Assembly: GCF_003340495.1 (NCBI RefSeq) | Contig: NZ_QASA01000001.1 | Location: 3,906,001-3,970,000, forward strand | Length of the DNA: 64,000 nucleotides | From: Adhaeribacter pallidiroseus | GTDB taxonomy: Bacteria; Bacteroidota; Bacteroidia; Cytophagales; Hymenobacteraceae | Reading direction: 5' to 3' | In this document: positions 10,306 to 39,595 of the stretch, in pieces | Position numbering within the stretch: position 1 is the first letter of the stretch | Layout of the letters: every line of letters begins with the position of its first letter | Program-made: the position numbers and the translations under genes | Notes under the pieces: model-generated | What the model saw: only the letters and a program-made list of their open reading frames with translations | Told to the model about the DNA's origin: nothing | Database searches by the model: none

Positions 10306-11555
10306 CTAAAGCTTTCCACCTACTACCACCGTTTCTTTAAAAGTTTGCACGTTACCCTGCATGTTAAATAACTCAATAAAAAGCACATAATAGCCAATAG
10401 GAGCTTTTTGTTGCTGGCTATTAGTACCATCCCACTGAAAAAATCCTTGATTGGCGAGTAGTTCGTTTTTCACCAATCGTTTAATCAGGCGACCGGCCGT
10501 ATCGTAAACCGTTATGTTGGCTACCATTCCGTTTTTAGCCGCTGCATAGTTAATCGTGGTAAAATCGCGGTCGCCGTCACCGTCCGGGGTAAATACCTTA
10601 GGCTCAATGGTGAACACTTGCGCAGTGGCGTTGGCTTCCTGTACCTGCGAGTTGCGGTAACCCGGCGTGGCGTAACCCACATTGGTAGCTGCCGAGTGAA
10701 AATTACTGGCTACACTCGGCCCATCTAACCTAATTCGTTCCAACGAAACGCCGTTTACATCATCAATTAATTTAAAATGCAGGTCTTCGTGGTAACTCAC
10801 CCGGTCTATCTCCTGCTTTTCAGCATTTATTATTACAACAGTGCCAGCCTCATCGGGAAAGGAAGGCAAGCTGCTTAATTTTAAAAAAGTTTCGGGTTTA
10901 GCTTTAGGGTAATGCTGCTGTACAATATCGGGGCGGGTAGTAAGTACTAAATATTGTTGCGGCGCCACCATCAATGGTACCTGGCTTAAGACTCGGGCAT
11001 CTAAGGCAGTATCAGCTTTTATATTGCCAACTTGCCAGTTTTGCAAGGAAATGTACTTATTGGAGCGATTAACAATTTCTACGAAATCCACACCTCCACT
11101 GCGCGGATTAAACAAGATTTCGTTGATAACCACATCGCCGGCTACCGCCGTTTGGGGAAGAATAAAAGTAGCCTGCACCGGAGTAGCCAAAATGTTGCCG
11201 CTGCAATCGCGGATGTTGGCAACGGTAACCTGATAGGTTTGCCCAGCCTGCAGGTTACCCGCGAGGGCGAGTTCCACGGTGGTGAAATCGGGGCTCAGGA
11301 TCGTAACTTTCGTTACCGCTATTTCGGGAGAAATTTTGTAAAAAGCGGGCAGCACCGACTGCGCGCTATCCAGCTTTTCGTTGAAAGTAAGGGTAAGCGT
11401 TGCGTTATTTTTGATGTAAACCTGTTGGAGTACAGGCGGTAAATTATCTGGATTGCTGGCCTTAACTGAATTTTCTTTTCCCGGAGTACCGCCAGCTGGG
11501 TTAGTGCTGGCTACCCAATTGTTACCGGAAACGCACGGATTCTGTAGATCTATAA
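10306..11555 (-). pseudogene. Lamin-tail domain surface protein, C-terminal fragment (split by the integrative element)
   Basis: An open frame begins at 11598, but the native sequence begins at the att core (IDLQNPCVSGNNWVASTNPA). It holds an Ig-like segment (LTLTFNEKLDSAQSVLPAFY), a lamin-tail domain (VINEILFNPRSGGVDFVEIV) and a C-terminal FlgD/T9SS-like domain (VFTPDGDGDRDFTTINY ... TAGRLIKRL). Its N-terminal half is at 39583-40940: that half ends SLEIIDLQN and this one continues IDLQNPCV. The original protein was about 865 residues and probably secreted by the type IX system. The fragment has no native promoter. Confidence 0.88.
11543..11555. repeat. attL core of the 28-kb integrative element
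   Basis: TGTAGATCTATAA occurs here and at 39583-39595, the two points where the lamin-tail gene is cut. The centre TAGATCTA is palindromic, as expected for a tyrosine-recombinase crossover site. The integrase gene lies about 160 bp inside. Confidence 0.88.
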
Positions 11556-11680
11556 ATACTGGCCATAAACAAACATAATAGATTTCATTAACAACCATAA
11601 CTAATATGGCTTATACTATAAGAATAGGGCTATTATTTTACTATTTAATTAGGTTTGATATATGAATATTATGCAAAGTT

Positions 11681-11701
11681 TTGTACCTTACTTGTACCTT
11701 A
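11681..11701 (+). promoter_or_regulatory. Direct repeats TTGTACCTTA, candidate integrase arm sites (left)
   Basis: TTGTACCTTA occurs at 11681-11690 and 11692-11701, an 11-bp spacing of about one helical turn, just upstream of the likely integrase start. The same 10-mer recurs at 39515-39524 near the right end. Paired subterminal repeats like these are typical integrase arm-binding sites. Function is inferred. Confidence 0.5.
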
Positions 11702-11712
11702 AGAGATACAAA

Positions 11713-12837
11713 ATGACTAAAGTTAAGCTCCGATTAAAGCCAATTAGCAGCGGCCGGCAAACGCTTTACCTGGATATTTATCCACCTATAATTCATCCGG
11801 AAACTGGCAAGCCTACCCGTAGAGATTTTCTTGGTCTGTATATCTTTGAAAAGCCTAAAACTTTAACCGATAAACAGCACAATAAAGAAACTTTACTCCT
11901 TGCGGATAATATTAAGGCAAAGCGGCAGCTTGAAATACAAAGCGGTGATTATGGTTTTTTAATTTCTAAGAAGGCCCCCGTTAGTTTTTTTGGGTTTTAT
12001 AAATCCTTGGTGGATAAACAAAGGCCCGGCACATCGAACCATACTAATTGGTATCATAGCTACACTACCTTTATAGGGTTTGCGGAAGCTAATATTAACT
12101 TAGATCAAATTGATGAGGGTTTCTGCAATAACTATAAAGAGTACTTACTTACAGCTTATATCAATAAGACCCATAAAAAAACATTAAGTCAAAATACTGC
12201 CAGCATTTATTTTGATGTATTTAAAAAAATTCTTAGAGTATCCTACAAACTAGAACTAATTAAGAAGGATCTTAATAGTAAAATTAAGGCAATACCTAGA
12301 GCTGATTCTCAACGGGAGTACTTATCTATTGAGGAGCTGCAGCTATTAAGTCAAACTGCATGCACTTTACCAATTCTAAAAAAAGCCGGTTTATTCTCAG
12401 CGCTTACAGGCTTACGATTTTCAGATTTAAAAAAATTAGTTTGGAGTGAGATAAAATACAGTCAGGCGGAAGGGTATTATATAAGTTTTAGGCAGAAGAA
12501 AACGAAAGGTGTAGAAACTTTGCCTATTTCCGAACAGGCTTACAAACTACTAGGTGAACGAGAGCAGCCAGAAGAAGTGGTATTTCTTAATTTAAATTAT
12601 CATGGTGGCTTGGGGATGCATTTAGAAAGATGGATTAAAGCGGCCGGCATTACAAAACATATCACCTTCCATAGCTTTCGGCATACTTTTGCGACTTTGC
12701 AGCTTTCCTTGGGTACAGATATTTATACGGTTTCTAAGATGCTGGGCCACCGGGAGCTAAAAACCACCCAGATCTATGCTAAGATTATAGATAAATCTAA
12801 GCGGGAAGCGGCTAATAGAATTAAACTCGATCTTTAA
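11713..12837 (+). CDS. Tyrosine-type site-specific recombinase (integrase)
   Basis: Catalyses integration and excision at the att core. The open frame extends up to 11662, but MTKVKLRLKPISSGRQTLYL at 11713 matches the usual N-terminus of Bacteroidota integrases and leaves the repeats upstream untranslated. The protein has 374 residues: arm-binding and SAM-like core-binding domains, then the catalytic domain. Catalytic residues seen are Arg in ALTGLRFSDLKKLVW, HxxR in HSFRHTFATLQL, the GH of MLGHRELKTTQIY and the Tyr nucleophile in TQIYAKI. It is complete and probably active. Confidence 0.93.
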   Translation: MTKVKLRLKPISSGRQTLYLDIYPPIIHPETGKPTRRDFLGLYIFEKPKTLTDKQHNKETLLLADNIKAKRQLEIQSGDYGFLISKKAPVSFFGFYKSLVDKQRPGTSNHTNWYHSYTTFIGFAEANINLDQIDEGFCNNYKEYLLTAYINKTHKKTLSQNTASIYFDVFKKILRVSYKLELIKKDLNSKIKAIPRADSQREYLSIEELQLLSQTACTLPILKKAGLFSALTGLRFSDLKKLVWSEIKYSQAEGYYISFRQKKTKGVETLPISEQAYKLLGEREQPEEVVFLNLNYHGGLGMHLERWIKAAGITKHITFHSFRHTFATLQLSLGTDIYTVSKMLGHRELKTTQIYAKIIDKSKREAANRIKLDL

Positions 12838-12852
12838 TATTCATACAACCTA

Positions 12853-14038: not shown

Positions 14039-14105
14039 CCCAAAATTTTGTTTTTTCAGGTTTTTTTATATTTTATTTGTGGCTGTTAACTAATCGTTGT
14101 CAGCT

Positions 14106-14462
14106 ATGAATGATATCCTCTTAACACCTATTAGACTAAATGAGCTAGAAACTCTCATTACTAACTCAGTTCGTAAGGCCTTATTAGAGAGCCACAACAA
14201 TACACAAAAAGAACTTGAAACATTAGATGAAAATCTAACGATCCAACAAGCAGCTACTTTTTTAAACTTAGCAGTACCTACTATTTACGGTATGGTAAGT
14301 CGTCAAGAAATACCATTTAGCAAACCAGGTAAATCTAAGCGTCTTTATTTTTCAAAAAAGGATTTGACGGATTTTATAAAATCCGGTCGCAGGAAAACTA
14401 TTGCCGAAATCGGCCAAGAGGCTGACCGGTATGTCGCTTCTAAAACACAAAAAAAGCGATAG
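14106..14462 (+). CDS. Excisionase-like helix-turn-helix protein
   Basis: About 118-121 residues; ATG codons occur at 14097-region upstream and at 14106 (MNDILLTPIRLNELE), and the start choice is not decisive. Residues about 45-100 form a MerR/excisionase-type DNA-binding domain: LTIQQAATFLNLAVPTIYGM, then VSRQEIPFSKPGKSKRLYFS. Proteins of this kind act as recombination directionality factors or local regulators in Bacteroidota mobile elements. It precedes the replication genes in the same direction. Confidence 0.85.
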   Translation: MNDILLTPIRLNELETLITNSVRKALLESHNNTQKELETLDENLTIQQAATFLNLAVPTIYGMVSRQEIPFSKPGKSKRLYFSKKDLTDFIKSGRRKTIAEIGQEADRYVASKTQKKR

Positions 14463-14513
14463 GCCCACCCGCCAAGATAGTCCTATCGCTAATTCACTTT
14501 AAAATACAAAGAT

Positions 14514-14720
14514 ATGAGCCGTCCTCTATTCGACAAAAAAGAAGTAGAATCTTCTAATGTTAAGTTGCAATCATTTCTAAAAGCAGTTCCCTACCTCACC
14601 TTTTCCGATACCGGATTAAAAAACATTGCCGGCCGTTTTGGGATTACCCTGGAAGAACTTAAAGAGCATATAGCAAACTTCGAAAACGAAAACACCGGGA
14701 AAGGAGGGCAAAATGCATAA
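14514..14720 (+). CDS. Small hypothetical protein upstream of the RepA-like ATPase
   Basis: 68 residues (MSRPLFDKKEVESSNVKLQS ...), ending 8 bp inside the start of the ATPase gene, which suggests translational coupling. The middle (TFSDTGLKNIAGRFGITLEE) may be a short helix-turn-helix. A replication accessory function is inferred from position only. Confidence 0.6.
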   Translation: MSRPLFDKKEVESSNVKLQSFLKAVPYLTFSDTGLKNIAGRFGITLEELKEHIANFENENTGKGGQNA

Positions 14721-15768
14721 TGAAAGCTCCCACATTAACATCGATCCCGATTTTGATTATAGCATTTTTGAAGAAAGTAATGAATCTTCCCAAGAAGTTA
14801 CGGGAGAACAGTTATTAAGTGAGGAAGTAAAAGAAATGGATTATCTAATCCAAAATCTTTTACCCAGAACAGGGATAGCAGCACTGGCCGGAGCTTCCGA
14901 TACAGGTAAAAGCATGCTCCTTAGATATTTATCAATTTGCCTGGTTGCAGGGGTCGAATCATTTCTCGGGTTCTTATTTAACACCGTCCATAGAAGCTGT
15001 ATTTATGTCTCTTCAGAAGATGGTCGTGAAGCCACCTCTTTTCTTCTTCAGCGCCAAGCAAGCCAATATCTGCCGGCCGTACTTCAAAAGCTCAGGTTCA
15101 TATTCGATTATGAAGATTTACTGGAGAAACTTGACTCTAGCTTAACAGCTAAGCCTGCGGATTTAATTATAATAGATTGCTTCTCCGATGTGTTTGGCGG
15201 AGATTTAAAGGATACCCAAAAAATTAGAACATTCTTAAATCCTTATCAAAAGCTTTCTGAAAAACATAAATGCTTTATTTTATTTCTCCATCATACAGGT
15301 AAACGAACTGAGAATTTTGAACCTAGTAAAAACAACCTATTAAGCGGCCAAGGCTTTGAGGCCAAAATGAGGCTTGTTATAGAGCTCAGGGCCGACTTAA
15401 TGAACCCTACTCAAAGACATCTTTGCATTGTTAAGGGCAACTACCTCCCTGCTCGATTTAAGAAGGAAAGCTTTGTCCTGGACTTCGATGAGCAAAACTT
15501 CACTTTCTCCAACACCGGGGATCGGACACCTTTCGAGTTACTGGTAAAACAACCAGAAGGAGATAATAGCCGCACTAAATACGAACAAGCTAAAGCCCTG
15601 AAAGAACATGGGCATAGCTATGAGAAAATAGCGCAAATGATAGGTTATGGTAGCAAAGGCAGTGTTTCAAAGCTGTTTGATAAAGCCGAAAAAAATGGCT
15701 GGGATACTGATGTTTCCTCTCCTGTTTCCAATGGAAACAAAGGAAACGATAACGGAAACGATCTATAA
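14713..15768 (+). CDS. RepA-like AAA family ATPase (replicative helicase type)
   Basis: 351 residues. Walker A is IAALAGASDTGKSMLLRYLS (about residues 55-75), then SCIYVSSEDGREATSFLLQR as in RepA/DnaB-like helicases, and Walker B is ADLIIIDCFSDVFGG. A sensor-like segment FILFLHHTGKR follows. The C-terminus has a short HTH-like stretch (HSYEKIAQMIGYGSKGSVSK) and a low-complexity tail (NGNKGNDNGNDL) encoded by GGAAAC repeats. It probably acts with the downstream DUF6371 protein to replicate the excised element. Confidence 0.85.
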   Translation: MHNESSHINIDPDFDYSIFEESNESSQEVTGEQLLSEEVKEMDYLIQNLLPRTGIAALAGASDTGKSMLLRYLSICLVAGVESFLGFLFNTVHRSCIYVSSEDGREATSFLLQRQASQYLPAVLQKLRFIFDYEDLLEKLDSSLTAKPADLIIIDCFSDVFGGDLKDTQKIRTFLNPYQKLSEKHKCFILFLHHTGKRTENFEPSKNNLLSGQGFEAKMRLVIELRADLMNPTQRHLCIVKGNYLPARFKKESFVLDFDEQNFTFSNTGDRTPFELLVKQPEGDNSRTKYEQAKALKEHGHSYEKIAQMIGYGSKGSVSKLFDKAEKNGWDTDVSSPVSNGNKGNDNGNDL

Positions 15769-15817
15769 ACAAATCGTTTCCTGTTTCCTACGCCTTAGTG
15801 TTTGGAAACAGGAAACG
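15709..15817. repeat. GGAAAC/GTTTCC iteron-like cluster
   Basis: Nine copies of GGAAAC or its complement occur in about 110 bp, in both orientations, spanning the end of the ATPase gene and the gap before the DUF6371 gene. The cluster includes palindrome copy 1. Iteron arrays at a rep gene often mark a replication origin; that role is inferred. Confidence 0.55.
15775..15817 (+). repeat. 43-bp palindromic repeat, copy 1
   Basis: Perfect 14-bp arms CGTTTCCTGTTTCC and GGAAACAGGAAACG flank a 15-nt spacer. It is the exact reverse complement of copy 2 at 30931-30973 over all 43 bp. It lies between the RepA-like ATPase and the DUF6371 gene. Confidence 0.92.
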
Positions 15818-15834
15818 CAAAAAAGCCAAAAATT

Positions 15835-16821
15835 ATGAACCAACACAGATATATACTAGATCCTAAAGGCAGGAAACATACTTGTATTAGCTGCGGTCAA
15901 AAAAGAGCTGTTCGGTATATAGACAAACAAACTTCGCAGTATTTACCGGATCACTACTCAAGATGTGACAGGGAGATAAATTGCACCTATCACCTCAATC
16001 CTTATAAAGATGGATTTGTTAAAGCTTTAGAGGAAAATGGCGATTTAAAGCGTTTCCTGTTTCCGCGCACTAAGGGAAAGGAAACAGGAAACGCTAAGAG
16101 ACAAGATTTAATTAAGCCCTCATTCACTGATAAAACTGTATTTATTCAAACACTGACTAACTATCAATCTAATAGTTTTTGCTCTTTCTTGATAAATCTA
16201 TTTGGTTCGGAATTAACAACTACTCTTGTAAGTAAATATTTTGTTGGTACTTCTGACCACTGGCCCAACAGTACAATATTCTGGCAAATTGACACTAAGG
16301 GCAAGATTAGAGGCGGCAAAGTAATGTTGTATAACCCGGAAACAGGGAAACGAATTAAGGCGCCTTTCAATCATATTAGTTGGGTACACTCTACCTTAAA
16401 AGATGAAAATTACAAACTACAACAGTGTTTATTCGGGGAACACCTTCTAAAAACAGATCCACATAAACCAGTTGCCTTAGTTGAATCTGAAAAGACTGCC
16501 ATCATTGCCAGCCCCTACCTGCCAGAGTTTATCTGGCTTGCTACCGGAGGCTTAAGCAATTTCACCCTTGAGAAATGCAAAGTATTGGCCGGCCGCAACG
16601 TGGCCTTATACCCGGACCTGAACGCTTACGATAAGTGGAATAATAAGGCCTTGGAATTTGCGCACCTAGCTAAATTCAAGATATCCGATTTCCTGGAAAC
16701 TACCGCCACCGAGGAAGAACGGTGCCAAGGTTTAGACCTAGCAGATTACCTTATTCGCTATGATTACAACGAGTATCAATTCATACAAGAATATCCATCA
16801 ACTATTAAACAAGCAGCTTAA
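15835..16821 (+). CDS. DUF6371 primase-like protein
   Basis: 328 residues from ATG 15835; an in-frame ATG at 15802 lies inside the palindromic repeat and adds METGNAKKPKI, so the later start is preferred. The N-terminal zinc-ribbon-like segment has CISCGQKRAVRYID and CDREINCTYHLNPYKDGF. The C-terminal half is Toprim-like (VALVESEKTAIIASPYLPEF, IWLATGG, VALYPDLNAYDKW). It probably primes DNA synthesis for the element. A copy of the 43-bp palindrome is embedded in frame at 16051-16093 (residues about 73-87). Confidence 0.82.
   Translation: MNQHRYILDPKGRKHTCISCGQKRAVRYIDKQTSQYLPDHYSRCDREINCTYHLNPYKDGFVKALEENGDLKRFLFPRTKGKETGNAKRQDLIKPSFTDKTVFIQTLTNYQSNSFCSFLINLFGSELTTTLVSKYFVGTSDHWPNSTIFWQIDTKGKIRGGKVMLYNPETGKRIKAPFNHISWVHSTLKDENYKLQQCLFGEHLLKTDPHKPVALVESEKTAIIASPYLPEFIWLATGGLSNFTLEKCKVLAGRNVALYPDLNAYDKWNNKALEFAHLAKFKISDFLETTATEEERCQGLDLADYLIRYDYNEYQFIQEYPSTIKQAA
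16051..16093 (+). repeat. 43-bp palindromic repeat, copy 3 (inside a coding sequence)
   Basis: The same perfect 14-bp arms as copies 1 and 2 flank a diverged 15-nt spacer (GCGCACTAAGGGAAA). It shares CACTAAGG and the following GCTAA with copy 2. It is translated as RFLFPRTKGKETGNAK within the DUF6371 protein. Confidence 0.9.
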
Positions 16822-17037: not shown

Positions 17038-17085
17038 AATGAAAATATTATTTAAAAAGTGGGGTATCGAAAAAAGTGTAGCACA

Positions 17086-17424
17086 ATGGGAGTTGAGTAT
17101 CGAAACGGGAAACCGTATCTGTATAAAAAGGTAAGAAAGAACGGAAAAGTTATTTCCGAATATGTATGTGGGGGCGCCTTGATTTGGGCCCTTGTTGACC
17201 TTCAAGAGTACGACCAACTGAAAAATAATGAGATAAAAGAAGCTACGCGGAAGGAAAAAGACCTGCAACTGCAAGCAGATCGAGAAATATACATGCTGGA
17301 GAAATCCTTAAAAGAAATAATGAATCAAGTAGCTGTAGCTAACGGCTACCATAAACTTAACGGACAATGGAGAAGGAAACGCCAAAAACAACGGAGAGTA
17401 AAACCCGATTCGACCAACTACTAA
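17086..17424 (+). CDS. Hypothetical protein of the mobile element
   Basis: About 112 residues from ATG 17086 (MGVEYRNGKPYLYKKVRKNG); an upstream in-frame ATG at 17059 is less natural. An N-terminal beta-rich part is followed by a basic coiled-coil region (about 50-90) and a Lys/Arg-rich tail. It overlaps the next gene by 58 bp in another frame. Function unknown. Confidence 0.6.
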   Translation: MGVEYRNGKPYLYKKVRKNGKVISEYVCGGALIWALVDLQEYDQLKNNEIKEATRKEKDLQLQADREIYMLEKSLKEIMNQVAVANGYHKLNGQWRRKRQKQRRVKPDSTNY

Positions 17425-17894
17425 AACTTTGTAATGATCACGAAAACCCCAATGAAGAATACAGGGAAGAATTACATGATCTTATTCATTCTAATCAGGA
17501 CTTTAGAAAGCGCATGCAACTTCATGAGGGCTGGTATCCTATGGTGTTGAGAGCGAGGATTGAAAAACTAAATTTTAGCGATACGCTGAAGGAGGTGCTT
17601 TATGTAAAATGTGCTCAGCTTCGAGAGGAGCTAGGTTATGCAACTTCTAATAAATTGGAAAAGCTGGCAATTGAGCAGATCGTCCTTTGTTGGGTTAACC
17701 ATCATCACACTGACCTTGGTCATGCGGATAATCTTACTAAACCTCATAGTAAGGACATTGGTTTGTATTGGGAAAAACGGTTAGCATATTCCAGCCGGCG
17801 TTACGAGCGGGCTTTAGAATTGCTTTCTAAAATGCGGAAAATGAAATTGGTTGTTCAAGTAAATAACGCCACTAATCAGATTGTAAGCAATTAA
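17367..17894 (+). CDS. Hypothetical helical protein of the mobile element
   Basis: 175 residues (MEKETPKTTESKTRFDQLLK ...), helical and charged, with a central IEQIVLCWVNHHHTDLGHAD and a basic C-terminal SSRRYERALELLSKMRKMK. It overlaps the upstream gene, so the two were probably cotranscribed. I do not recognise the family with certainty. It ends 16 bp before the convergent KAP gene stop. Confidence 0.65.
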   Translation: MEKETPKTTESKTRFDQLLKLCNDHENPNEEYREELHDLIHSNQDFRKRMQLHEGWYPMVLRARIEKLNFSDTLKEVLYVKCAQLREELGYATSNKLEKLAIEQIVLCWVNHHHTDLGHADNLTKPHSKDIGLYWEKRLAYSSRRYERALELLSKMRKMKLVVQVNNATNQIVSN

Positions 17895-17910: not shown

Positions 17911-20159
17911 TTAGGTTAGCTCACTTTTATTTTTATACCAATATACGAATTGATGAATTAGGTTTTCATCTGTCTGCAAATGGTTAAGACTTATATAGGT
18001 CTCAACAGTTAAAGTTGGGACCCTTAGGAGCTTACATATAGTTTTATAAATAACACTTGGATCAAGAATTTTAATTAACCAATCATAAGATTGTTCATTG
18101 AAATCGCCATAAAAAGGTTCAGGATGGGCTGAGCTGTGAATAAATGGAACAAAGACCTTGAGTAAGTATCTTACAGTGTCTGGCTTTAATTCCAAGTGAT
18201 CTGATACATATTCAAATAATGCAGTTTTATCAAATTCAATTGCTAAAACCTCTAACATAAACTTAGATTCATAAGTATAAGTCTCCCAAATTGGTTTAGG
18301 AGATGAATTCTTTTTAGCTCGATCAATTAGATTTCCAGCCAGTTCTTTATTTTGCTCATGTTCAAATATTCTTCCTGCTTCATCTTGATCGTTCCTGCAG
18401 CAATCAAATACCTCATAAGCAAATCTAAATGAAGTTGACTCTTGTATAATCCATTTGACAAGATCAAATCTTAATTCTTCACCAACCTGGTTCTTTATTA
18501 ACTGAGAAATAAAAATTGCTGCCTGAGAGAATGGACTAGAATAACCAAAAATAGATCGATCATCACGTGGGAAATAATCGCCAAGCTGGCCAAATATTTT
18601 AACAAGAGCTACTGATGTAACATTGTCAAAGTTTTTCTCTTTAAATCTAAATTTTTGTAGGAAGTTTTTGGGCAAAGAAGATTTTAAGAGTTTAATTGTA
18701 GGTTCCACCATTTTGATATATTCCTCATGCCCAATTTTTTCCAAAAGAGAATCAAATTCTACATCGGATACATCACCTTCTATAACCGTGTAGGTGAAAT
18801 ATCTATTAAAATATTGATTTGATGATATTCTTTTTTGGATATATCGAGAATCTGAATTATTTCTACTCGAATCGTAAAACCATCCTTTCGCCCATACATT
18901 TTTCAAATTGGGGAATAAATCTATTAAAGCTCCTTTAGCATTTGCTACTTCGTCTAGGCTATATCCCTTGGCAAAGTATTCAAATAAGGACTTAAACTTG
19001 CTGGTCTTTTCATCTTCTTGCCCCTGTTTCCCTGAACGAACTTCATAATGACCTATAAAATACTCAGGTTGATTTCTAGCAAATTCATACATTTCAGGAT
19101 AAAATACTCGCAACGCTTCGACAAGAAGTAAATCTACATAATTAACTTCTCCCTTTAAAAGAGGTAAGGAAAATGATAAAGTGTTTCCATATCTAACTGC
19201 TAAGCGAGGGGTATTTAGTCTTATCAAGTAGTTTGATGAAAATTTATTTGCAAATTCTTTTAATTCTTGACCAGTCATCTCAATCCTACTAGTATTGATT
19301 GATTGCTCTACCAACTGAAAACAATAATCTTTAAGTGCTGAACTTTGAGCTAGTGGTAGCTTTAGTGGAATTTGAACAATTTTTTCTAGAAAATTTAAAC
19401 CAGCTTTTTGATCACCGGCCCCAAACCTCTCTCCTATTGCTGAGGCTACCATGTGCTCATCGAAAGAAAGGACATAAGTAGTGTATGCAAAATCTCCTGT
19501 TAATTTGACTAACCGGAAAATAGCATGAATTTCTGTTTTTTCGAGACGATCAATGTCATCTATAAAAATTATAATTCTTTTTCTATTATCGGTGAGTAGT
19601 TTCTCAATTCTTATTTTTAATTCATCAACATCAACATTGGAAAGTGCATTACCTATAGTTTCAGCCACTTCGCCTGCCCCAAAAACCGAAACTATTTTTC
19701 CATATTTTTGAATTATATCTCCAATTGATTCTTTTCTAGTTTTTAATGGCTCTTTTGGGTTATCCAATTTATATGCTACCCTCTTATACCAGCTCGTTAA
19801 ACCCTTTTGTTTTTCAGATTTGCTTAAAGTTTCCTCTGTCGTATTTTCAGGTATAGAGTCCTTTAATTCTTTTGCCAAGGTATTAAAAAAGGAAGTAAGG
19901 AGTGCAGCTTCATCCGTGAAGCGCCAAGGGTTAAAAGTAAAATGGATTATAGTACCCTTTTGGAAGTCAAGTTCGCGCTTTATGAAATTTAATACGGATG
20001 TTTTACCTTCCCCCAAGCACCATAAAGTCCAATAACAATACTATCGCTACTGTTCCTTTCTATTATGGTCTCGGCAATCCTTTTAGAGAAACTATATCTT
20101 TGAAATTTATCTTCATTCTCTTCATTAATTGGCTTATCTGATAAATATGTTTCTTCCAT
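17911..20159 (-). pseudogene. KAP-family P-loop NTPase, frameshifted in Walker A
   Basis: The longest open frame starts at 20016 with MGEGKTSVLNFIKREL, which is half a Walker A motif. The other half lies upstream in another frame from ATG 20159 (MEETYLSDKPINEENEDKFQ ... SIVIGLYGAWG). Adding one base to the C5 run at 20010-20014 restores GAWGEGKTSVL and about 750 residues. Walker B is IIIFIDDIDRL. KAP NTPases are often membrane-linked, and some act in phage exclusion, so a defence role is plausible but inferred. The loss is either a true inactivation or a homopolymer error. Confidence 0.82.
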
Positions 20160-26829: not shown

Positions 26830-27033
26830 ATGAACTATGCTGTTGAAGGTAATAAACGTGCGGCTAAGCTTTATTTTGATGTGATAGGTAAGCTTAATCT
26901 AAGTGATGAAAGCAAACCGGCTGTAATAAACCAACAGAATAACTACATTCAGCTCAACAGCATTTCTATTAGCCAAAATACGGTGAAGCAGTTGTAGCCG
27001 GAACAGATAAACCAGATTGAGTTAATTATATTT
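26830..27033 (+). pseudogene. Phage terminase small subunit remnant (possible)
   Basis: ATG 26830 gives 55 residues ending at TAG 26995 (KLYFDVIGKLNLSDESKPAV, then NNYIQLNSISISQNTVKQL). The same frame continues after the amber codon with PEQINQIELIIF, which looks like the usual end of small terminases (PEQ-x-x-QIE). The N-terminal DNA-binding part is missing. Assignment is by resemblance only. Confidence 0.35.
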
Positions 27034-30999: not shown

Positions 31000-33969
31000 C
31001 TAGGTGATATCCGCCAGTTTCAAGTTTGTGGCGGGCTGGTGTTTCTCCTGAAAAGGCAGTTTGTCCATCTTTTCTACTTCCATACTGGGGAACCCAAACT
31101 CTGCTGTAATCTTTCCTAGCAGCAGGTACACGCCAGGGCCTTTAAAGGGCCAGTCTTTTAAGGATGGAGGAAAGTTAACGGTATCAAAGAAGTTATTCTG
31201 CGTATCCAGAAAAGTACCAAACTGCATGAGTTCTCCCCGGATGGTGCGGACTTGTTTCGTTGTGACTAATATACCCAACATGCGTACTTTCCTTCCGGTA
31301 TACTGCGCCATGGCAGCCGCTAGTACATCCCCCCGGTATTTCGTTTTCAGCAGATCAAAATAAGACAGGCTCACCGGGAAGCCCAGCAGTTCTAACTCAT
31401 CCCAGGCTTTATCTACCAACGTATAGGTTAAACTGGGTAAATGAAAATGTTTCTGCGGCGCTTGAAATAAAACCGCTTCCGCATCCAGGTTGCTTTTATG
31501 ACCGAGCAAGTAAAGTGCTTCCCAGAGCAAGTGTACTTTACTCTGACCCGTAAAGCGAAAAGCATCGATGCGGATCAGGATTTCTACCTGTTCTTTGGTA
31601 ATCTGCGTACGCTTGATAAAATCTTCTAGGCTAGTATAATGTCCCTGTTGAAGGCGCTCCGTTACGATTCTTTGACATGCTTGCTGCTCCAGGTTCTGGA
31701 TATGCACTAGGCCCAGGTAAATGTCCTGCTGGTAAATAGTGGTGGTAAAGAGGCTATGATTCACGCAGGGTAAGTGAATCATAGCACCCGCTTTCCGGGC
31801 TTCCTGCACGTACACCCACGTTTGGTAAAACCCGCCAAAGTTGTTAATCACGGCTACCATAAACTCCAGCGGGTAGTAGGTCTTCAAAAATAAGCTCTGA
31901 TAGCTTTCCACGGCGAATGAAGCCGAGTGCGCTTTAGAAAAGGAATAACCCGCGAACGATTCAACCTGCCGCCAGACCTCGCGGGTAATGGCTTCCGGGT
32001 AGCCTTTCTCCCGGCAGTTACTAAAAAACTTATCGACTAACTTCTGAAATTCTTGCTTGGAGCGGGACTTACCGCTCATGCCCCGACGTAATACATCGGC
32101 ATCGGCCAGGTCTAAGCCGGCAAAGTGGTGGCAAACTTTTAAAACATCTTCTTGGTAAACCATTACCCCATAGGTTTCTTTCAACTGTTCCCCCAGCACC
32201 GGATGAATGTGCTCAATCTTGTCCGGGTGGTGAAAGCGCTGGATATACGCCTTCATCATGCCCGATTTGGCCACGCCCGGCCGGATAATGGAACTAGCCG
32301 CTACTAAAGACAAATAATTATCACAGTGCAGTTTTTTGAGCAAACCCCGCATGGCTGGGCTTTCAATGTAGAAGCAGCCGATGGTATCCCCGGATTTTAA
32401 CTGTTGCCGGACTTTCTCGTCGGTTTTAAAGCGGGCTACTTCGTGCGCATCAATCTTGAGTTTCTGGTTTTGCTGCACCAGGTGCACACATTCCTTGATG
32501 TGGCCAATACCCCGCTGGCTTAAGATGTCGAGCTTCTCAAAGCCGATGCTTTCCGCTACGTACATGTCCCACTGGCTGGTCGGCATGTTTTTGGGTGGTA
32601 AATCCAAAGCGGTGTAACAAGTCAAGGGTTGCTCGGAAATAAGTACGCCGCCCGCATGAATGGAGCGTACGTTGGGAAAGTCGGTGAGCAATTTGCCGTA
32701 TCGGAAGATTTGCTGCGTATACTGGTTTTGATTCGCTCCCGCTGCGGGATTAGCTACTAAAGCATCGAGTTCACTTTTAGGCAACCCGTACACCTTACCT
32801 AGTTCCCGCAAAATAGCGTTTTGCTGAAAGGTACTCATGGCTCCTAAAAGAGCGGTATGTTCCCGGCCGTAGCGTTTAAAGATGTAATCGAGTACCTCGT
32901 CCCGTTCGTCCCAGCTGTAATCAATGTCAAAATCAGGGGGCGAGGTGCGCTTGGGATTGAGAAAGCGTTCGAAGTACAAGTCCAGTTCTATGGGATCTAC
33001 GTCGGTGATACGTAAACAATAGGCTACCACGCTGTTCGCCCCACTGCCCCGGCCAATGTGGTAAAAACCGCGACTCATGGAGTAGCGGATCACGTCCCAA
33101 GTAATGAGGAAATAAGCACTAAAGCCAAGTTTATCAATAATAGTTAGCTCGTGTTCTACCCGTTGCCGGGCTACTTTATGCGTAGCCCCATAGCGCTGGC
33201 GCAAGCCGTCCTGGGCTAATTTTTCCAATAGCAGTTTATCGTCGTAAGCGGTGGCAGAAAAAAGGAATTTGTTCTTGCGGCTGCTGAAGTCGAAAGTAAA
33301 ACTGGCTTGTGCGACCAGCTTTTCCAAATTGCTAATCAAACTAGGAAAACGCTCGTAACTTTTGCGTAACTGATTAGCCGGTAGAAAAGCGGCATCCTCA
33401 TTTAGAGCATGCTCCGGAGTAAGTTGGCTGAGTAAGATGTTATGGTCAATGGCCCGTAAGTGGCGGTGCAAGGCGTATCCTTCTGGGTTCTCGTAAGTAA
33501 ATACCGGTTGCATCACTAGCTTATCCGGATAGTGCCGCAGGTTAGAGAATTGCAGCTTGTTGAGTTCGTGGGGCCGCACTCCAATGTATTCATTCTCTTG
33601 AAGCGCTTGGCTAGTACCCAGGGCAAAAGGATAAATAACCATTACCTGGTTAAAAGCAGGTGGTTTATCGGGTAATGCTTCTTGCAGCAGTTGATAGTGG
33701 CTCAAAAAAATATTTAGCTCTTGAAAACCCGCTTGGTTTAAAGCCACGCCGGTGTATAGCAGTTGATTATCCCGCCGAAATTCTATGCCTACTACAGGCT
33801 GGATACCGAGTTCGCGGCAGGCGGCTACAAAAGGAAACACGCCCGAGGTATTATTAATGTCTGTTAAGATTAAAGCTTTATAGCCTTGCTTCACGGCAGT
33901 AGCCACTACCTCTTCCACCGAGAGGGTACCGTAACGCAGACTGTAGTACGAATGAACAAAGGCCATCAT
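31000..33969 (-). CDS. dnaE2: DnaE-type DNA polymerase III alpha subunit (error-prone, ImuC/DnaE2-like)
   Basis: 989 residues, shorter than replicative DnaE. The order is a PHP domain (HSYYSLRYGTLSVEEV ... LTDINNTSG, with some metal ligands lost), the polymerase core with catalytic Asp residues in SPPDFDIDYSWDERD, fingers, a helix-hairpin-helix region and an OB-like end (RKVRMLGILVTTKQVRTIRG). Its start overlaps the stop of the Y-family polymerase as ATGA, so translation is coupled. Accessory DnaE proteins with Y-family partners extend from lesions and cause induced mutagenesis; that role here is inferred from gene order. The symbol is a best guess. Confidence 0.85.
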   Translation of the reverse strand: MMAFVHSYYSLRYGTLSVEEVVATAVKQGYKALILTDINNTSGVFPFVAACRELGIQPVVGIEFRRDNQLLYTGVALNQAGFQELNIFLSHYQLLQEALPDKPPAFNQVMVIYPFALGTSQALQENEYIGVRPHELNKLQFSNLRHYPDKLVMQPVFTYENPEGYALHRHLRAIDHNILLSQLTPEHALNEDAAFLPANQLRKSYERFPSLISNLEKLVAQASFTFDFSSRKNKFLFSATAYDDKLLLEKLAQDGLRQRYGATHKVARQRVEHELTIIDKLGFSAYFLITWDVIRYSMSRGFYHIGRGSGANSVVAYCLRITDVDPIELDLYFERFLNPKRTSPPDFDIDYSWDERDEVLDYIFKRYGREHTALLGAMSTFQQNAILRELGKVYGLPKSELDALVANPAAGANQNQYTQQIFRYGKLLTDFPNVRSIHAGGVLISEQPLTCYTALDLPPKNMPTSQWDMYVAESIGFEKLDILSQRGIGHIKECVHLVQQNQKLKIDAHEVARFKTDEKVRQQLKSGDTIGCFYIESPAMRGLLKKLHCDNYLSLVAASSIIRPGVAKSGMMKAYIQRFHHPDKIEHIHPVLGEQLKETYGVMVYQEDVLKVCHHFAGLDLADADVLRRGMSGKSRSKQEFQKLVDKFFSNCREKGYPEAITREVWRQVESFAGYSFSKAHSASFAVESYQSLFLKTYYPLEFMVAVINNFGGFYQTWVYVQEARKAGAMIHLPCVNHSLFTTTIYQQDIYLGLVHIQNLEQQACQRIVTERLQQGHYTSLEDFIKRTQITKEQVEILIRIDAFRFTGQSKVHLLWEALYLLGHKSNLDAEAVLFQAPQKHFHLPSLTYTLVDKAWDELELLGFPVSLSYFDLLKTKYRGDVLAAAMAQYTGRKVRMLGILVTTKQVRTIRGELMQFGTFLDTQNNFFDTVNFPPSLKDWPFKGPGVYLLLGKITAEFGFPSMEVEKMDKLPFQEKHQPATNLKLADIT

Positions 33970-35129
33970 AACTTTTTACCCGTTAATCCAGCCGCTCGTT
34001 TAACCGCTTCGGCGCCGTAGCGATGGCGGATCTTGTCCATCGCCTGGTAGAGGTTCACCAGCTCCGTAGTATCTTCAAATAAATCAATCTGCTGAAAGCC
34101 TTGCACCAGATGGCTTAATCTTACCCCCAGTAAGCGAATCAGCATGCGCCGGTTATAGAGCTTCTGGAACAACTCTTTGGCTTTGCGGATGAGGATGTGA
34201 TCGGCGGCGTTGTAGGGGATCATCATCTGCTGGGTATGCGTATCAAAGTTGGCGTAGCGAATCTTCACCGTAATACAACTGGTTAGCTTCTCCTGTTGCC
34301 GCAGTTCAAAAGCCAGCTTTTCCACCATCGACACCAGCAAGTTATTCAGGTAAGCAACATCAGTGGTATCCGTGCTAAAAGTGCGCTCGGTACTAATGGA
34401 CTTTTGCTCCGAATAAGGCACCACGGGCGCTAAATCAATGCCGTTGGCCTTTTCCCAAATAGAGATACCTTCTTTACCCAATACTTTCCGGATCACGTCG
34501 GGAGGAATCATGGTGAGCACTTCAATGGTGGGTACGCCCATGTTGCGCAAGAGCTGGTAGTTCTTCTCGCCCACGCCGGGTATTTTGCGGAGAGAAAGTG
34601 GCGAGAGAAAAGGTTTTACCTGTTCCTGTTGGACTTGTAAGGTGCCGTTGGGTTTGGCCTGGCCCGTGGCAATCTTGCTAACGGTTTTGTTAACCGATAA
34701 ACCAAAGGAAATGGGTAAACCCGTTTCTTTCATAATCAAGTTCCGAAGTTCGTTCGTCCACTTCCAGGTACCAAAGAAACGGTCCAGGCCGGTGACGTCC
34801 AGGTAGTGCTCGTCAATCGAAGCTTTCTCGTAGATATCGGCTTTAGCGGCAATCACTTGGGTAACGTCGGCCGAGTACTTGCTGTAGGCTTCCATATCGC
34901 CCCGCATAATGAGGGCTTCCCCGCAGAGTTGCTTGGCCATCCGGATCGGCATGCCGGCGTGTACCCCGTAACGCCTCGTTTCGTAACTGCAACTGGCTAC
35001 CACACCCCGATCGGATAAGCCGCCGATGATTACCGGTTTACCCACCAGTTGGGAGTTCCGTAATCGCTCCACCGACACGAAGAACGTATCCAGGTCAAAG
35101 TGCGCAATGGTGCGATTTTCCGGCAGCAT
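33966..35129 (-). CDS. dinB: Y-family DNA polymerase (DinB/Pol IV type)
   Basis: 387 residues. Catalytic motifs are complete: AHFDLDTFFVSVERL at the N-terminus and KASIDEHYLDVTGLD. A steric-gate-like FF, a helix-hairpin-helix (SLRKIPGVGEKNYQLLRNMG) and the little-finger domain follow. A beta-clamp binding motif QQIDLFED lies near residue 350. It inserts bases opposite damaged DNA. It lies between SRAP and the DnaE-type gene and overlaps the latter by 4 bp. It could equally be described as an ImuB-like partner, but its active site is intact, unlike ImuB. Confidence 0.9.
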   Translation of the reverse strand: MLPENRTIAHFDLDTFFVSVERLRNSQLVGKPVIIGGLSDRGVVASCSYETRRYGVHAGMPIRMAKQLCGEALIMRGDMEAYSKYSADVTQVIAAKADIYEKASIDEHYLDVTGLDRFFGTWKWTNELRNLIMKETGLPISFGLSVNKTVSKIATGQAKPNGTLQVQQEQVKPFLSPLSLRKIPGVGEKNYQLLRNMGVPTIEVLTMIPPDVIRKVLGKEGISIWEKANGIDLAPVVPYSEQKSISTERTFSTDTTDVAYLNNLLVSMVEKLAFELRQQEKLTSCITVKIRYANFDTHTQQMMIPYNAADHILIRKAKELFQKLYNRRMLIRLLGVRLSHLVQGFQQIDLFEDTTELVNLYQAMDKIRHRYGAEAVKRAAGLTGKKL

Positions 35130-35265: not shown

Positions 35266-35955
35266 CTATTGCGGATTGGGGAAAGCGGCAATGCTGGGAA
35301 TGGGTCGGGCTTGCATTTTAGCAGCATCAAAAGGTTGTAACAAATCTAGTAATTCTTGTTTACTAAGATCATTAGATAACCACAGTTTTTCTATATCGCG
35401 ATCCAGGATTACGGGCATGCGTTCCGGATGAATGGGTTTGACCAGTTCGTTGGCCCGGGTGGTAATGATGGTAAAAGAACGTACTACTTCGCCGGAGCTG
35501 GTATCTACCCACTCATCCCACAAGCCGGCAAAAGCCAGTAAGTTTTCATCCTTCAGGTTGATGAAATAGATTTCTTTTTGCTTTTTGGTTTTCGGTTTGG
35601 TGATCACTTGACCGAACATATCTTTTTCTACTGGCGTAACGTCTTTCCACTCGTAGAAACCCGAAGCGGGTACCAGACAGCGCTTAGTAGTGATCAGGCT
35701 CCGGAAAGAAGGTTTCCAGGTCAGCTCTTCGGATTTCGCGTTAAAGGTATCGTATTTAAAATCTCTGGTCGGAGCCCAATGCGGCAGAATGGACCACTTC
35801 ATAAAAGTTAAATGCTTGGGATCAGTGTTGGTAATTACGGGCAGCACATCACCCGGCCGGGCATCGTAGGAAGGTTGGTAAGGTTCTTCTATTCGCACAT
35901 CAAAGCGTTCTTCAATGGCTTCTAAATCTTCGGTTTCGGAATAGCGGCCGCACAT
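35266..35955 (-). CDS. SRAP (SOS response-associated peptidase, YedK/HMCES-like)
   Basis: 229 residues starting MCGRYSETEDLE; Cys2 is the residue that forms a thiazolidine cross-link with abasic sites after Met removal. Other conserved residues are seen in FNAKSE (Asn), SGFYEW (Glu) and IHPERMPVIL (His). It protects abasic sites in single-stranded DNA. It is the first gene of a probable SRAP-polymerase-polymerase operon (136-bp gap to the next gene). The upstream 36020-36085 region has AT-rich palindromes that could be operators. Confidence 0.92.
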   Translation of the reverse strand: MCGRYSETEDLEAIEERFDVRIEEPYQPSYDARPGDVLPVITNTDPKHLTFMKWSILPHWAPTRDFKYDTFNAKSEELTWKPSFRSLITTKRCLVPASGFYEWKDVTPVEKDMFGQVITKPKTKKQKEIYFINLKDENLLAFAGLWDEWVDTSSGEVVRSFTIITTRANELVKPIHPERMPVILDRDIEKLWLSNDLSKQELLDLLQPFDAAKMQARPIPSIAAFPNPQ

Positions 35956-37530: not shown

Positions 37531-37531
37531 T

Positions 37532-37879
37532 CTATTCAATCTTTACATTGTTACTTTTTAACAATTCTAGGTAAGTATTAGACTTAGCCCGTTCCAACTC
37601 CAGCAGCTTCCAGCAATTAGCGGCTTCTATACTACCTTCTACTACCGGCTCGGTCCGGATCATTTCCCCTACTCCACAGGCCAGCCAATGGCCATCTAGT
37701 TCAGGAAAAGCATTTAATAATTTGATAAAGCCTTCTAATGTAGGAAGTGTTTTATCATTTTCAATATGTGAGATTTGCCCACGTCCTACCCCTATTACTT
37801 CCCCTAAATCTTCCCCACTCATCTTTTTTAACTTTCTAAACTCTTTTAATCGGCTTCCAAAGGTTGTTTGTATATTCAT
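37532..37879 (-). CDS. XRE-family helix-turn-helix regulator
   Basis: About 115 residues from ATG 37879 (MNIQTTFGSRLKEFRKLKKM); an upstream in-frame ATG at 37918 adds an atypical hydrophobic stretch. The HTH is GSRLKEFRKLKKMSGEDLGE then VIGVGRGQISHIENDKTLPT. The C-terminal part has a short helix (ANCWKLLELERAKSNTYLEL). It faces away from two paralogous genes across a shared promoter region, so it probably regulates them and itself. Confidence 0.82.
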   Translation of the reverse strand: MNIQTTFGSRLKEFRKLKKMSGEDLGEVIGVGRGQISHIENDKTLPTLEGFIKLLNAFPELDGHWLACGVGEMIRTEPVVEGSIEAANCWKLLELERAKSNTYLELLKSNNVKIE

Positions 37880-37922
37880 GTTAAACTTCTTAAATAAATG
37901 TATAATTAATTGCAACAATAAT

Positions 37923-37953: not shown

Positions 37954-38019
37954 TTACAATAATACGAATTTAAAGCAAATATGTCTAACATAATTAAACA
38001 AATCTTAATTTTAACATTC

Positions 38020-38598
38020 ATGAAAACTACACTAATCGAAAACCAGCATTCTAATACTCTATTAGAGGAACTCCGTCAAACAGCAATTGAGGCATTTGAA
38101 AAGAAGGCCTTAGATTCGATTAGCCTAAGTTCTGCCTTAAGGCTTACCCGCCGGGATGATCCATCAAAGCCTAATCCTTTATCCCAGGATGAAATTTTAG
38201 ATTTAGAATCTCGAATCAAATACTTAAAAGGCAGGATTGAAAGTGCATCTACTTATGACCTACCTAACGGTAAGGTACCTGCAGCCGGAACCTGCCGGAC
38301 TATAGATTTGGATGAAAATGATTTAAGTGACATTAACATTATTTATAAACCAGATAAAGATCGTTCACCGGTAATATTTAACGCAACTCCTCTACTACAC
38401 GCCATAGTTGAAGAAACCTCACCAGAAGAAGTAGCTCAAGCCATAGATCAAAGTATGGAGTTCATGATAGGATACTTAGGTTATACCGGCTGGCACATGA
38501 ATGACAACATAGCCGGCATATATGCAACTCTCAGAAAAGTAAGAAATAGTATCATAGCAGGATATGCTAATTGTGTGCTAACTCCTTACATCGATTGA
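38020..38598 (+). CDS. Hypothetical protein, first of two tandem paralogs
   Basis: 192 residues from ATG 38020 (MKTTLIENQHSNTLLEELRQ); an in-frame ATG at 37981 is less likely because the paralog starts with MKTT too. The N-terminus (LLEELRQTAIEAFEKKALDS) closely matches the gene at 38672. The middle and C-terminal part are diverged. No family recognised. It is the first gene downstream of the promoter shared with the XRE regulator. Confidence 0.7.
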   Translation: MKTTLIENQHSNTLLEELRQTAIEAFEKKALDSISLSSALRLTRRDDPSKPNPLSQDEILDLESRIKYLKGRIESASTYDLPNGKVPAAGTCRTIDLDENDLSDINIIYKPDKDRSPVIFNATPLLHAIVEETSPEEVAQAIDQSMEFMIGYLGYTGWHMNDNIAGIYATLRKVRNSIIAGYANCVLTPYID

Positions 38599-38671
38599 AA
38601 TCCAGAACATTACTTAAGCATACCTTTAACTTAAATCAATTCTAATAAATTTTTAAATACTCATAATAGCC

Positions 38672-39253
38672 ATGAAAACCACAGTAACAGAAAATCCGGC
38701 AGAAGAATCATTGCGCGAAGAATTACGCCAAACTGCAATTTCGGCATTTGAAAATGATGCTATTGACGCTATTAGTCTAAAATCAGCCTTACAGCTAAGC
38801 TGTAGTGAAGAAGCCGCAAACATTCCACCGTATTTAGTAGGTAATAAAACAAACTTGCAGCGCCGAATCGAAGCCATCCAGGCGCAAATACATCAAGCCG
38901 AGGTACTTAAAGCTAAGCCCGAGTCTGAACAGCATGCTAAGTTTATATTTCACCTTTATAGAGAACCCATTGACATTCGCCCCATACTAGAGTTAATTGA
39001 ACATTACGGTATTACAAAAATTGCAAGCATCGTAGATACCGTAATGTTCAAATTTATACATCAGATGCCTGAAAACGCCTTTGATGAAGATTCAAAAGAA
39101 AATTTCTTTACAATGCGCCGAATCCGGGATGCTTTTTTGACTGCCGGTAATATTATTGAGTTAGATAGTTGGTTAGAGCGTCGATCTAAAGAAGTAAAGG
39201 AACAGGACAAAGTTGAGTTTAACGAAAGATACTTCGGTAACATTGCCAGCTAA
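38672..39253 (+). CDS. Hypothetical protein, second of two tandem paralogs
   Basis: 193 residues. It shares the pattern MKTT ... LREELRQTAISAFENDAIDA with the previous gene and the later IESIQAQI/IKYLKGRI coiled segment. The C-terminal half is diverged (IASIVDTVMFKFIHQMPENA). Tandem duplication is the simplest explanation. Function unknown. Confidence 0.7.
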   Translation: MKTTVTENPAEESLREELRQTAISAFENDAIDAISLKSALQLSCSEEAANIPPYLVGNKTNLQRRIEAIQAQIHQAEVLKAKPESEQHAKFIFHLYREPIDIRPILELIEHYGITKIASIVDTVMFKFIHQMPENAFDEDSKENFFTMRRIRDAFLTAGNIIELDSWLERRSKEVKEQDKVEFNERYFGNIAS

Positions 39254-39260
39254 TACCACG

Positions 39261-39497
39261 ATGCAGATTATAGCCGAATATGAGAACCGGATCACCTACC
39301 TGGACAATGTGGAAGGGTGGCCGGTTCGCTTTTACAAAGACAAGAAATCAAACCAACTTTACGTGAACTCCTACGACATTGCCCGGGTGCTGGGTTATGA
39401 GAACGCCCACGAGCTGCTTAGTTCAGATGATGCTTTAGACCAGATCCTACAGCATCAGAAAGAACATCCGGAAGAGCCGTTTTTTATGAAGTGGTGA
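39261..39497 (+). CDS. Hypothetical protein with a BRO-N-like segment
   Basis: About 78 residues from ATG 39261 (MQIIAEYENRITYLDNVEGW). The segment QLYVNSYDIARVLGYENAHE resembles the start of BRO/antirepressor DNA-binding domains, but only weakly. An upstream in-frame ATG (39213) lies within the previous gene. It is the last gene before the right end of the element. Confidence 0.5.
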   Translation: MQIIAEYENRITYLDNVEGWPVRFYKDKKSNQLYVNSYDIARVLGYENAHELLSSDDALDQILQHQKEHPEEPFFMKW

Positions 39498-39514
39498 GCA
39501 TTATTGCTCCTTAT

Positions 39515-39524
39515 TTGTACCTTA
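39515..39524 (+). promoter_or_regulatory. TTGTACCTTA, candidate integrase arm site (right)
   Basis: The same 10-mer as the tandem pair near the left end (11681-11701), here about 60 bp inside the right core repeat. Its placement fits an integrase arm-binding site. Confidence 0.45.
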
Positions 39525-39582
39525 AAAATCATTTTTGCAATTAATAACCTGATTGTCAATTCATTAAATATATAAAGTATTT

Positions 39583-39595
39583 TGTAGATCTATAA
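39583..39595. repeat. attR core of the 28-kb integrative element
   Basis: TGTAGATCTATAA, identical to 11543-11555. Joining the element ends across it gives AGTATTTTG-TAGATCTA-TAAATACT, a near-palindromic attP-like site with AGTATTT/AAATACT flanks. Confidence 0.88.

Follow-up and report, generated by a model that had tools for sequence, protein, structure and literature searches.

The window analysed here is a stretch of 64,000 nucleotides from Adhaeribacter pallidiroseus (contig NZ_QASA01000001.1, positions 3,906,001 to 3,970,000 of the forward strand). In it an element of 28,040 bp, bounded by two identical 13-bp cores (TGTAGATCTATAA), interrupts a gene for a lamin-tail-domain protein (Table 1). 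The integrase gene at the left end points inward and forms, with the HTH_17, AAA_25 and DUF6371 genes, the gene core of the element; between this gene core and a set of cargo genes stands a gene for a phage tape measure protein (TMP). The gene content suggests a phage-satellite-like integrative element, cargo-laden and partly decayed, that has its own TMP, a reading to which we give a probability slightly below one half (roughly 0.48).

An integrative element inside a lamin-tail gene

That an integrative element is present is as good as certain. The original prediction, made from the letters of the window, had described such an element with a protein-coding gene rather than a tRNA gene as its target and with an identical core of palindromic centre at both ends, and both points were borne out. 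The 13-bp core occurs twice in the 6,425,974-base genome, each time at an element junction, its pattern read backwards has no copy in those 6,425,974 bases, and an 8-bp palindrome (TAGATCTA) can be read by eye inside it. The repeat by itself is only moderately surprising: first-order Markov resampling of the two ±300-bp end zones produced a shared exact match of at least 13 bp in 8 of 1000 trials. It is convincing because of the in-frame rejoining, the gene itself and the count of two in the genome. Indeed, scripted joining of both flanks gave an open frame for an 865-aa lamin-tail/type IX secretion system (T9SS) protein, the halves of which contain two lamin-tail domains and a T9SS-type C-terminus by Pfam.

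Intact homologues longer than either fragment, on which the original prediction depended, were found: the lamin-tail gene is a single frame of 864-872 aa in six of the seven congeners (G001, G002, G004, G005, G006 and G007) and is split in the seventh, G003. Its N half was matched in 55 of the 59 genomes searched (own genome counted). The 5' half is 80% identical to the uninterrupted gene of G004 and 76% to that of G006, and both halves align to these two genes as far as the core or one residue past it. Relatives had also been expected to carry the core in an uninterrupted gene. The gene is uninterrupted, but the exact core is not conserved: G004 and G006 each keep 9 of its 13 bases, which rules out that the exact core recurs in these relatives. 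A shorter match in G014 looked suggestive of a further interruption, yet the gene there is an unsplit 609-aa open frame. The window contains no tRNA or tmRNA and its search gave no Rfam match, and a plain tRNA-site island was rejected on these grounds.

The integrase probably starts near position 11713, because its relatives align only from about residue 15 of the open reading frame (ORF). A 10-bp sequence, TTGTACCTTA, has three copies in the window, all at the element ends; 0.29 copies were expected, and none of 100 shuffles gave as many as three. These copies are candidate arm sites of the integrase. The four best integrase matches (G009, G018, G026 and G040; 54-60% identical) sit just downstream of an mnmE-like gene, whose MnmE identity was confirmed by Pfam for G026; thus, cutting a coding gene is no rule of this integrase type. 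At the right end of the element, the 94-aa terminal gene holds the same position as in the elements of G003 and G006; it was found in three of the eight genomes of the genus, where it always adjoins the right-hand end of an element inserted in a coding gene.

Related elements in two congeners

It had been proposed that the same element might be found in relatives at the same core. Two congeners do carry related elements, one of them in the same gene; its site, however, lies about 260 bp away. This G003 element of about 27.4 kb has an integrase different from the window integrase (24% identity), and its breakpoints fall within an 18-bp overlap. No perfect att repeat was found for it; a 9-bp sequence, AGTAGTGGC, was seen by eye at the breakpoint, and a longer 12-mer nearby lies off the breakpoint. 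Its ends therefore rest on homology breakpoints. The G003 element contains an integrase, an HTH protein, a replication gene, DUF6371, a TMP of 1123 aa and two small terminase subunits (TerS); no large terminase subunit (TerL), portal or capsid was found among the ORFs scanned, a 1311-aa ORF being among those left out. IMG/VR lists the element as viral (L145 is identical over 15,855 bp). The segments common to the window and G003 elements have about 69-76% DNA identity. Because this resembles the flanking genes (68-78%) and the sites differ, the two are likely separate insertions. By simple arithmetic, under uniform targeting of about 6.5 Mb the same 2.6-kb gene would be hit again with odds near 4 in 10,000; some insertion preference for the lamin-tail gene is therefore likely.

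In G006, an element of 48.3 kb (G006:C1:5519839-5568129) with TGCAAACGCATATAGA on both flanks (a shared match of 16 was not reached in any of 1000 resamplings) lies inside another coding gene, the frame of which continues across it. A by-eye reading of this target as an outer-membrane protein was unsupported, the N part having no Pfam match and the C part matching PorP_SprF at 0.0091, below the cut-off. The element encodes TerS, TerL, a primase/helicase and a TMP-like protein of 2210 aa, which matches a PHROG TMP family at only 1.5e-4, yet the L113 TMP described below at 5e-77. Among its 10 proteins scanned there was no portal or capsid family; a 139-aa ORF matches a head-morphogenesis PHROG (5.3e-11) among others.

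Tape measure genes and wider relatives

The window TMP scored 59.1 bits against the Pfam TMP_3 cut-off of 41 and is separated from the gene core by two ORFs and the KAP gene. It is 37-41% identical to ORFs of the IMG/VR contigs L227, L228 and L229; in L227 a tail tube protein comes shortly before the TMP, whereas the window TMP stands alone.

DUF6371 relatives were gathered by alignment, and 80 genome loci kept of 470 confirmed, 80 viral-contig loci, the window, G003, G008, G026, G040 and G009 made up a pool (G018 is not in it). Iterative profiles gave two TerS types, in 9 and 17 sequences of the pool. Several viral contigs have a TerL-sized ORF beside TerS, and these may be phages. Nine TMP seeds searched against the 772 pool ORFs of at least 350 aa matched in the window, G003 (= L145), G008, L113, L089 (= L152), L215 and L218. 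The G008 element comprises 13,640 bp between 10-bp repeats (AAGATATGAA) and has a collinear order: integrase, unknown protein, HTH, a 509-aa protein in the replication slot, DUF6371, a 221-aa protein, a TMP of 716 aa, a 109-aa protein and TerS (3.4e-32). Its site is where a VWA gene stops and a TPR gene starts, apparently with neither of them cut, and the ORFs scanned include no TerL, portal or capsid. In Pontibacter virosus, locus L113 has an integrase, an HTH protein, a replication gene, DUF6371, a TMP of 1143 aa and TerS (6.8e-35); its scanned ORFs likewise include neither TerL nor portal nor capsid. Locus L089 of Epilithonimonas tenax has the common gene core and a TMP of 1446 aa; no TerS was found there. 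L113 and L089 gave no convincing att repeat, and the ends of L113 were not found.

Other relatives are built differently. At the mnmE end in G026 (contig C4), about 7.0 kb with 20-bp repeats contains TerS and neither DUF6371 nor TMP, and in G040 (contig C1) a related integrase lies at the mnmE 3' end, where 16-bp repeats bound about 12.65 kb. The TMP seeds matched nothing in the mnmE-associated G009, G026 and G040 (G018 is outside the pool). L160 (IMG/VR 3300012942_000311) is a contig of 8.8 kb with a 123-bp terminal overlap, which we read as a circle; it has the common gene core, a prohead protease, an HK97-type capsid and TerS, and is a candidate capsid-forming satellite. Terminal overlaps of 114-127 bp were found in 5 of the 10 viral contigs tested (L147, L148, L149, L151 and L160). 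A second DUF6371 gene of the host (2.696 Mb) was rejected as another element by neighbour comparison: of the 29 ORFs listed around it, only DUF6371 itself has a counterpart in the window or G003 element or among the TMP and TerS proteins of G003 and G008.

Direct comparison of the TMPs (E 1e-3) paired the window with L227 and L229, G003 with L113 and L089, and L113 with G006. At this threshold, the window and G003 groups gave no mutual match and the G008 TMP matched no other TMP, so that three groups stand apart that are too divergent for a good alignment. Between the window and G003, the DUF6371 proteins are 54% identical, the SRAP proteins 70% and the terminal genes 92%. Because the gene-core and right-end genes are plainly homologous, the TMPs mutually unmatched and the window TMP similar to ORFs on IMG/VR contigs that also carry tail genes, it looks as though the TMP has been replaced repeatedly at one slot.

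Other genes of the element and the DNA-damage cassette

Of the element ORFs, 23 were scanned in Pfam and 10 in PHROGs. Neither set yielded a TerL, portal or capsid, and no TerS was found in the element. No relaxase was found among the 23, as the original prediction had stated, and its mixture of replication genes, phage pieces and DNA-damage genes was likewise recovered by domain matches. It had missed, however, that the phage piece is a complete-looking TMP where relatives carry other TMPs and TerS, that the error-prone polymerase cassette is open where a chromosomal copy is broken, that the KAP gene is frameshifted, and that two congeners have related elements, one of them in this very gene.

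The three cassette genes of the element (SRAP, ImuB and DnaE) are all open, whereas a second chromosomal set (G000:C1:3357753-3359977) is fragmented, with pieces of 77-83% DNA identity to window positions 31000-35955. A genome-wide search, which covered ImuB only, gave 27-33% identity for the other open ImuB matches of the host. G006 has one ImuB copy above 80%, carried by its element; in G004 there are two copies, the first on a contig of 116.7 kb and the second on its large contig; in G003, ImuB lies outside the element, which carries SRAP only. It is reasonable to infer that the host cassette was replaced by the mobile copy. The G004 contig of 116.7 kb carries the whole SRAP/ImuB/DnaE cassette (G004:C2:34916-39886) among neighbours that look plasmid- or conjugation-like by eye.

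The frame of the KAP/PifA-like gene is broken at the Walker A region (about 20016-20060), as its separate frames show. The break in this PifA/QatA-like NTPase (window 17911-20161) may reflect gene decay or an error of sequencing in a G run. The 55-aa gene piece matches residues about 149-202 of a 223/225-aa protein directly after DUF6371 in L067 and L146 and looks like a broken gene; that protein was left unnamed rather than called TerS, as it matched a PHROG unknown family (L067) and gave only weak HTH-like matches in Pfam (both). The 147-aa ORF adjoining the TMP was not accepted as common to L229, the match to the ORF beside the L229 TMP being weak (31% over 36 aa, E 0.003). The G+C content is about 31-42% at 12-28 kb and at the right end, and 44-49% over 28-36 kb. 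A repeat search at 14400-14800, a possible origin, found nothing.

Table 1. Features of the element and of the interrupted gene, in window positions
Feature	Position	Strand	Evidence or remark
3' half of lamin-tail gene (LTD, Big_5, CHU_C T9SS sorting domain)	10306..11542	-	Pfam; in-frame rejoin
attL core TGTAGATCTATAA	11543..11555	+	sequence match at junction
Tyrosine integrase	11662..12837	+	Phage_integrase 3.2e-21, Phage_int_SAM_5 2e-16 (Pfam)
Two 10-bp repeats TTGTACCTTA, candidate integrase arm sites	11681..11701 (copies at 11681, 11692)	+	repeat count
Unknown protein, 381 aa	12853..13998	+	no Pfam, PHROG or PADLOC match
HTH_17 (AlpA/excisionase-like) regulator	14097..14462	+	Pfam 1.9e-11; PHROG HTH/excisionase
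AAA_25 ATPase, probable replication protein	14713..15768	+	Pfam 4.3e-24; PHROG primase/helicase families
DUF6371 protein with zinc ribbon, putative primase-like role	15802..16821	+	Pfam 1.7e-66
Two ORFs (121 and 175 aa)	17059..17894	+	no PHROG or PADLOC match
KAP NTPase, PifA-like, broken frame	17911..20016	-	KAP 4.8e-43 (Pfam); PADLOC PifA 2.4e-64
TMP, 803 aa	20380..22791	+	TMP_3 6.1e-16; PHROG tail TMP 7e-23
147-aa protein adjoining TMP	22959..23402	-	64% identical to G003-element ORF
Alginate-lyase-like protein, cargo	24287..25558	+	Pfam 1.7e-11
Ion channel, cargo	26158..26820	-	Pfam Ion_trans 2.5e-23
55-aa gene piece	26830..26994	+	phmmer 1.2e-11 and 2.6e-10
2OG-Fe(II) oxygenase (AlkB-like), cargo	27330..27971	-	Pfam 8.1e-19
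SBBP/PKD/CHU_C secreted protein, cargo	28513..30915	+	Pfam
DnaE-type polymerase, 989 aa	31000..33969	-	Pfam DNA_pol3_alpha 2.1e-65
Y-family (ImuB/DinB-like) polymerase	33966..35129	-	Pfam IMS 5.3e-42
SRAP (SOS-associated peptidase)	35266..35955	-	Pfam 8.9e-59; 70% identical to G003 element
HTH_3 repressor-like regulator	37532..37918	-	75% identical to G003 element
Two related ORFs (205, 193 aa) near right end	37981..39253	+	homologous to one G003-element ORF
Terminal gene, 94 aa	39213..39497	+	weak Bro-N/anti-repressor similarity, below cut-off
Third TTGTACCTTA copy, right end	39515..39524	+	repeat count
attR core TGTAGATCTATAA	39583..39595	+	sequence match at junction
5' half of interrupted lamin-tail-domain gene (Big_5, LTD)	39596..40940	-	Pfam LTD 6e-16

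Discussion

The core TGTAGATCTATAA at both junctions, the in-frame rejoining, the uninterrupted homologues and the relatives that have TMP and TerS without head genes among their scanned ORFs argue for a satellite-like integrative element, and satellite ancestry is likely. The original prediction was right to see an integrative element and missed these satellite-like relatives. Like the phage-inducible chromosomal islands (PICIs), the element has an integrase with a specific att site, its own regulator and replication module by domain matches, and no complete virion gene set, the TMP being the only structural gene among the scanned ORFs; no packaging gene such as the TerS of PICIs was found, and the scanned ORFs include neither the TerL, portal and capsid set of a complete prophage nor the relaxase of a mobilizable element. 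Because the KAP/PifA-like gene is frameshifted, no TerS was found and the element is cargo-laden, the window copy may be stranded; it keeps open integrase, replication and TMP genes.

We propose helper-dependent packaging and chimeric tails, by analogy with known satellites. In this scheme, the element would have arrived as a circle whose 13-bp core the tyrosine integrase recombined with the identical 13 bp in the lamin-tail gene. Once excised, the element would copy itself through the AAA_25/DUF6371 module, as its domains and the circular overlaps of relatives' contigs suggest, and leave the cell inside helper-phage particles. Its TMP would be placed in tails otherwise made by the helper, and the satellite would thereby set the tail length and possibly also the specificity of DNA entry. 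The lineage would keep the gene core and swap the TMP, TerS or capsid gene to suit different helpers. The element may persist in the host because, apart from its own, no open polymerase of the ImuB subfamily was found there. A resident prophage-like region near 2.312 Mb (G000:C1:2302389-2329442) has a terminase match (phrog_2, 2.4e-22; Pfam 0.0019, below cut-off) and is possibly a helper or a mere neighbour. A by-eye TMP label for its 969-aa ORF received no support from Pfam, and this ORF did not match the element TMP at 1e-3.

Several observations weigh against the satellite-like reading. Excision, particles and a helper are all unseen, and the element is at 28 kb about twice the size of that in G008 and has no TerS that was found. 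The window and G003 TMPs match common PHROG TMP profiles (phrog_58, 1272 and 991), and BLASTP relates the G003 TMP weakly to that of G008 (24% over 100 aa, E 8e-4). The TMP groups are thus probably remotely related, and fast TMP divergence could mimic exchange; because the groups share PHROG profiles, the reading and its family-wide extension given below are slightly weakened, and the decayed-prophage and mobilizable-element alternatives gain slightly. A TMP was detected in only 2 of the 80 DUF6371 genome loci (L089 and L113), a minority state and a lower bound, as many loci are truncated. The scans of the relatives left out some ORFs, such as the 1311-aa ORF of G003. When 35 further relative ORFs were pooled against PHROGs, no TerL, portal or capsid appeared among the 25 of 41 families listed; one of the 35 ORFs matches the TerS family phrog_24579 at 2.9e-6. 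DUF6371 also occurs in phage csAssE-Sib and on plasmids. With TerL and a phage-type primase/helicase, the G006 relative stands nearer to a defective prophage.

The G006 element leads to the alternative that survives best, in which a temperate phage lost its head and most tail genes, kept the integrase, replication and TMP genes and later gained cargo. The match of the window TMP to ORFs of L227-L229, with a tail tube protein before the TMP in L227, fits such a decayed prophage, the gene piece and the frameshift show decay, and the G006 relative has both TerL and TerS. However, in G008 the gene core, TMP and TerS are collinear within 13.6 kb that have no head genes among the scanned ORFs, and L113 is similar; moreover, TMPs of different groups follow the same gene core, which parallel decay would give only by coincidence. 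We therefore consider a decayed prophage unlikely. More improbable still is an integrative and mobilizable element with only an origin of transfer, mobilized in trans by conjugation, for which the TMP would be passive cargo. Most DUF6371 genome loci indeed lack TMP and TerS by the profiles used, and 11 plasmid records contain DUF6371, of which 4 are predicted to be conjugative; yet the 23 ORFs scanned in Pfam include no relaxase, TMP and TerS recur in relatives, and long tail genes would hardly have stayed open as passive cargo. That the TMP is a decoy that poisons the tail assembly of incoming phages, the element being a defence island, fits the KAP/PifA-like gene beside it and the defence theme of tail-assembly interference as described in PMC11364771, but it is very unlikely given that the TMPs are long (716-1446 aa; 803 aa in the window) and accompany TerS in G003, G008 and L113 and that the KAP gene is frameshifted.

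Beyond the window, the satellite-like reading can be extended to a Bacteroidota-wide satellite family on an integrase/HTH/DUF6371 core, in which divergent TMPs would have been taken repeatedly from different phages into one slot to give chimeric tails matched to the helper; in this genus its members would have coding genes, including some for surface proteins, as their sites and could take over the host SOS polymerase cassette. In this full form the proposal is doubtful. If true, a distant lineage would combine different TMPs with one gene core, in at least one element of only 13.6 kb, and tail length, helper evasion and host entry could be tested against one another as the purpose of exchanging TMPs. 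A. pallidiroseus and G003, whose related elements sit in the same surface-protein gene and have different integrases, also offer a natural experiment on the choice of coding targets.

Several known systems resemble the window element in part. The mnmE-associated elements of G009, G018, G026 and G040 share, besides the similar integrase, a homologous HTH protein, and those of G009 and G040 also DUF6371; they lie downstream of mnmE, whereas the window element cuts a coding gene. The tail regions of L227, L228 and L229 resemble it in the TMP and differ in the tail tube protein that precedes the TMP in L227. PICIs and capsid-forming PICIs (cf-PICIs) likewise have an integrase, an AlpA-like regulator and a replication module; G008 and L113 are PICI-like in having TerS and no TerL that was found, and L160 resembles the capsid-forming type. 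In contrast to PICIs, the replication module is of the DUF6371 kind, and the window copy is 28 kb long with no TerS found.

The phage-inducible chromosomal island-like elements (PLEs) share with the window element that a satellite carries its own TMP. They belong to another phylum, their replication module differs from that of the window element, and their helper is known, whereas that of the window element is only proposed. The PLE tail assembly chaperone and the PLE11 hub protein, in the available text on PLEs, were not recognised in the window element. PLE satellites of Vibrio cholerae make chimeric tails with their own TMP, and transduction is reduced without tmp (PMC12987554). In the available text of that paper (2026), no satellite besides PLEs is said to have been reported to encode a TMP, and the benefit of the tail change is left open; the legend of its Extended Data Fig. 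10 refers to cf-PICIs with putative tmp genes. PMC11389934 lists known satellite families, and its available part names Bacteroides only for mobilizable units (NBU), not for satellites; the matches listed in the openly licensed PMC literature included no work on satellites of this build from Bacteroidota. Going by these sources, a satellite TMP is already known from PLEs and figured for cf-PICIs, and the window element would add a divergent variant.

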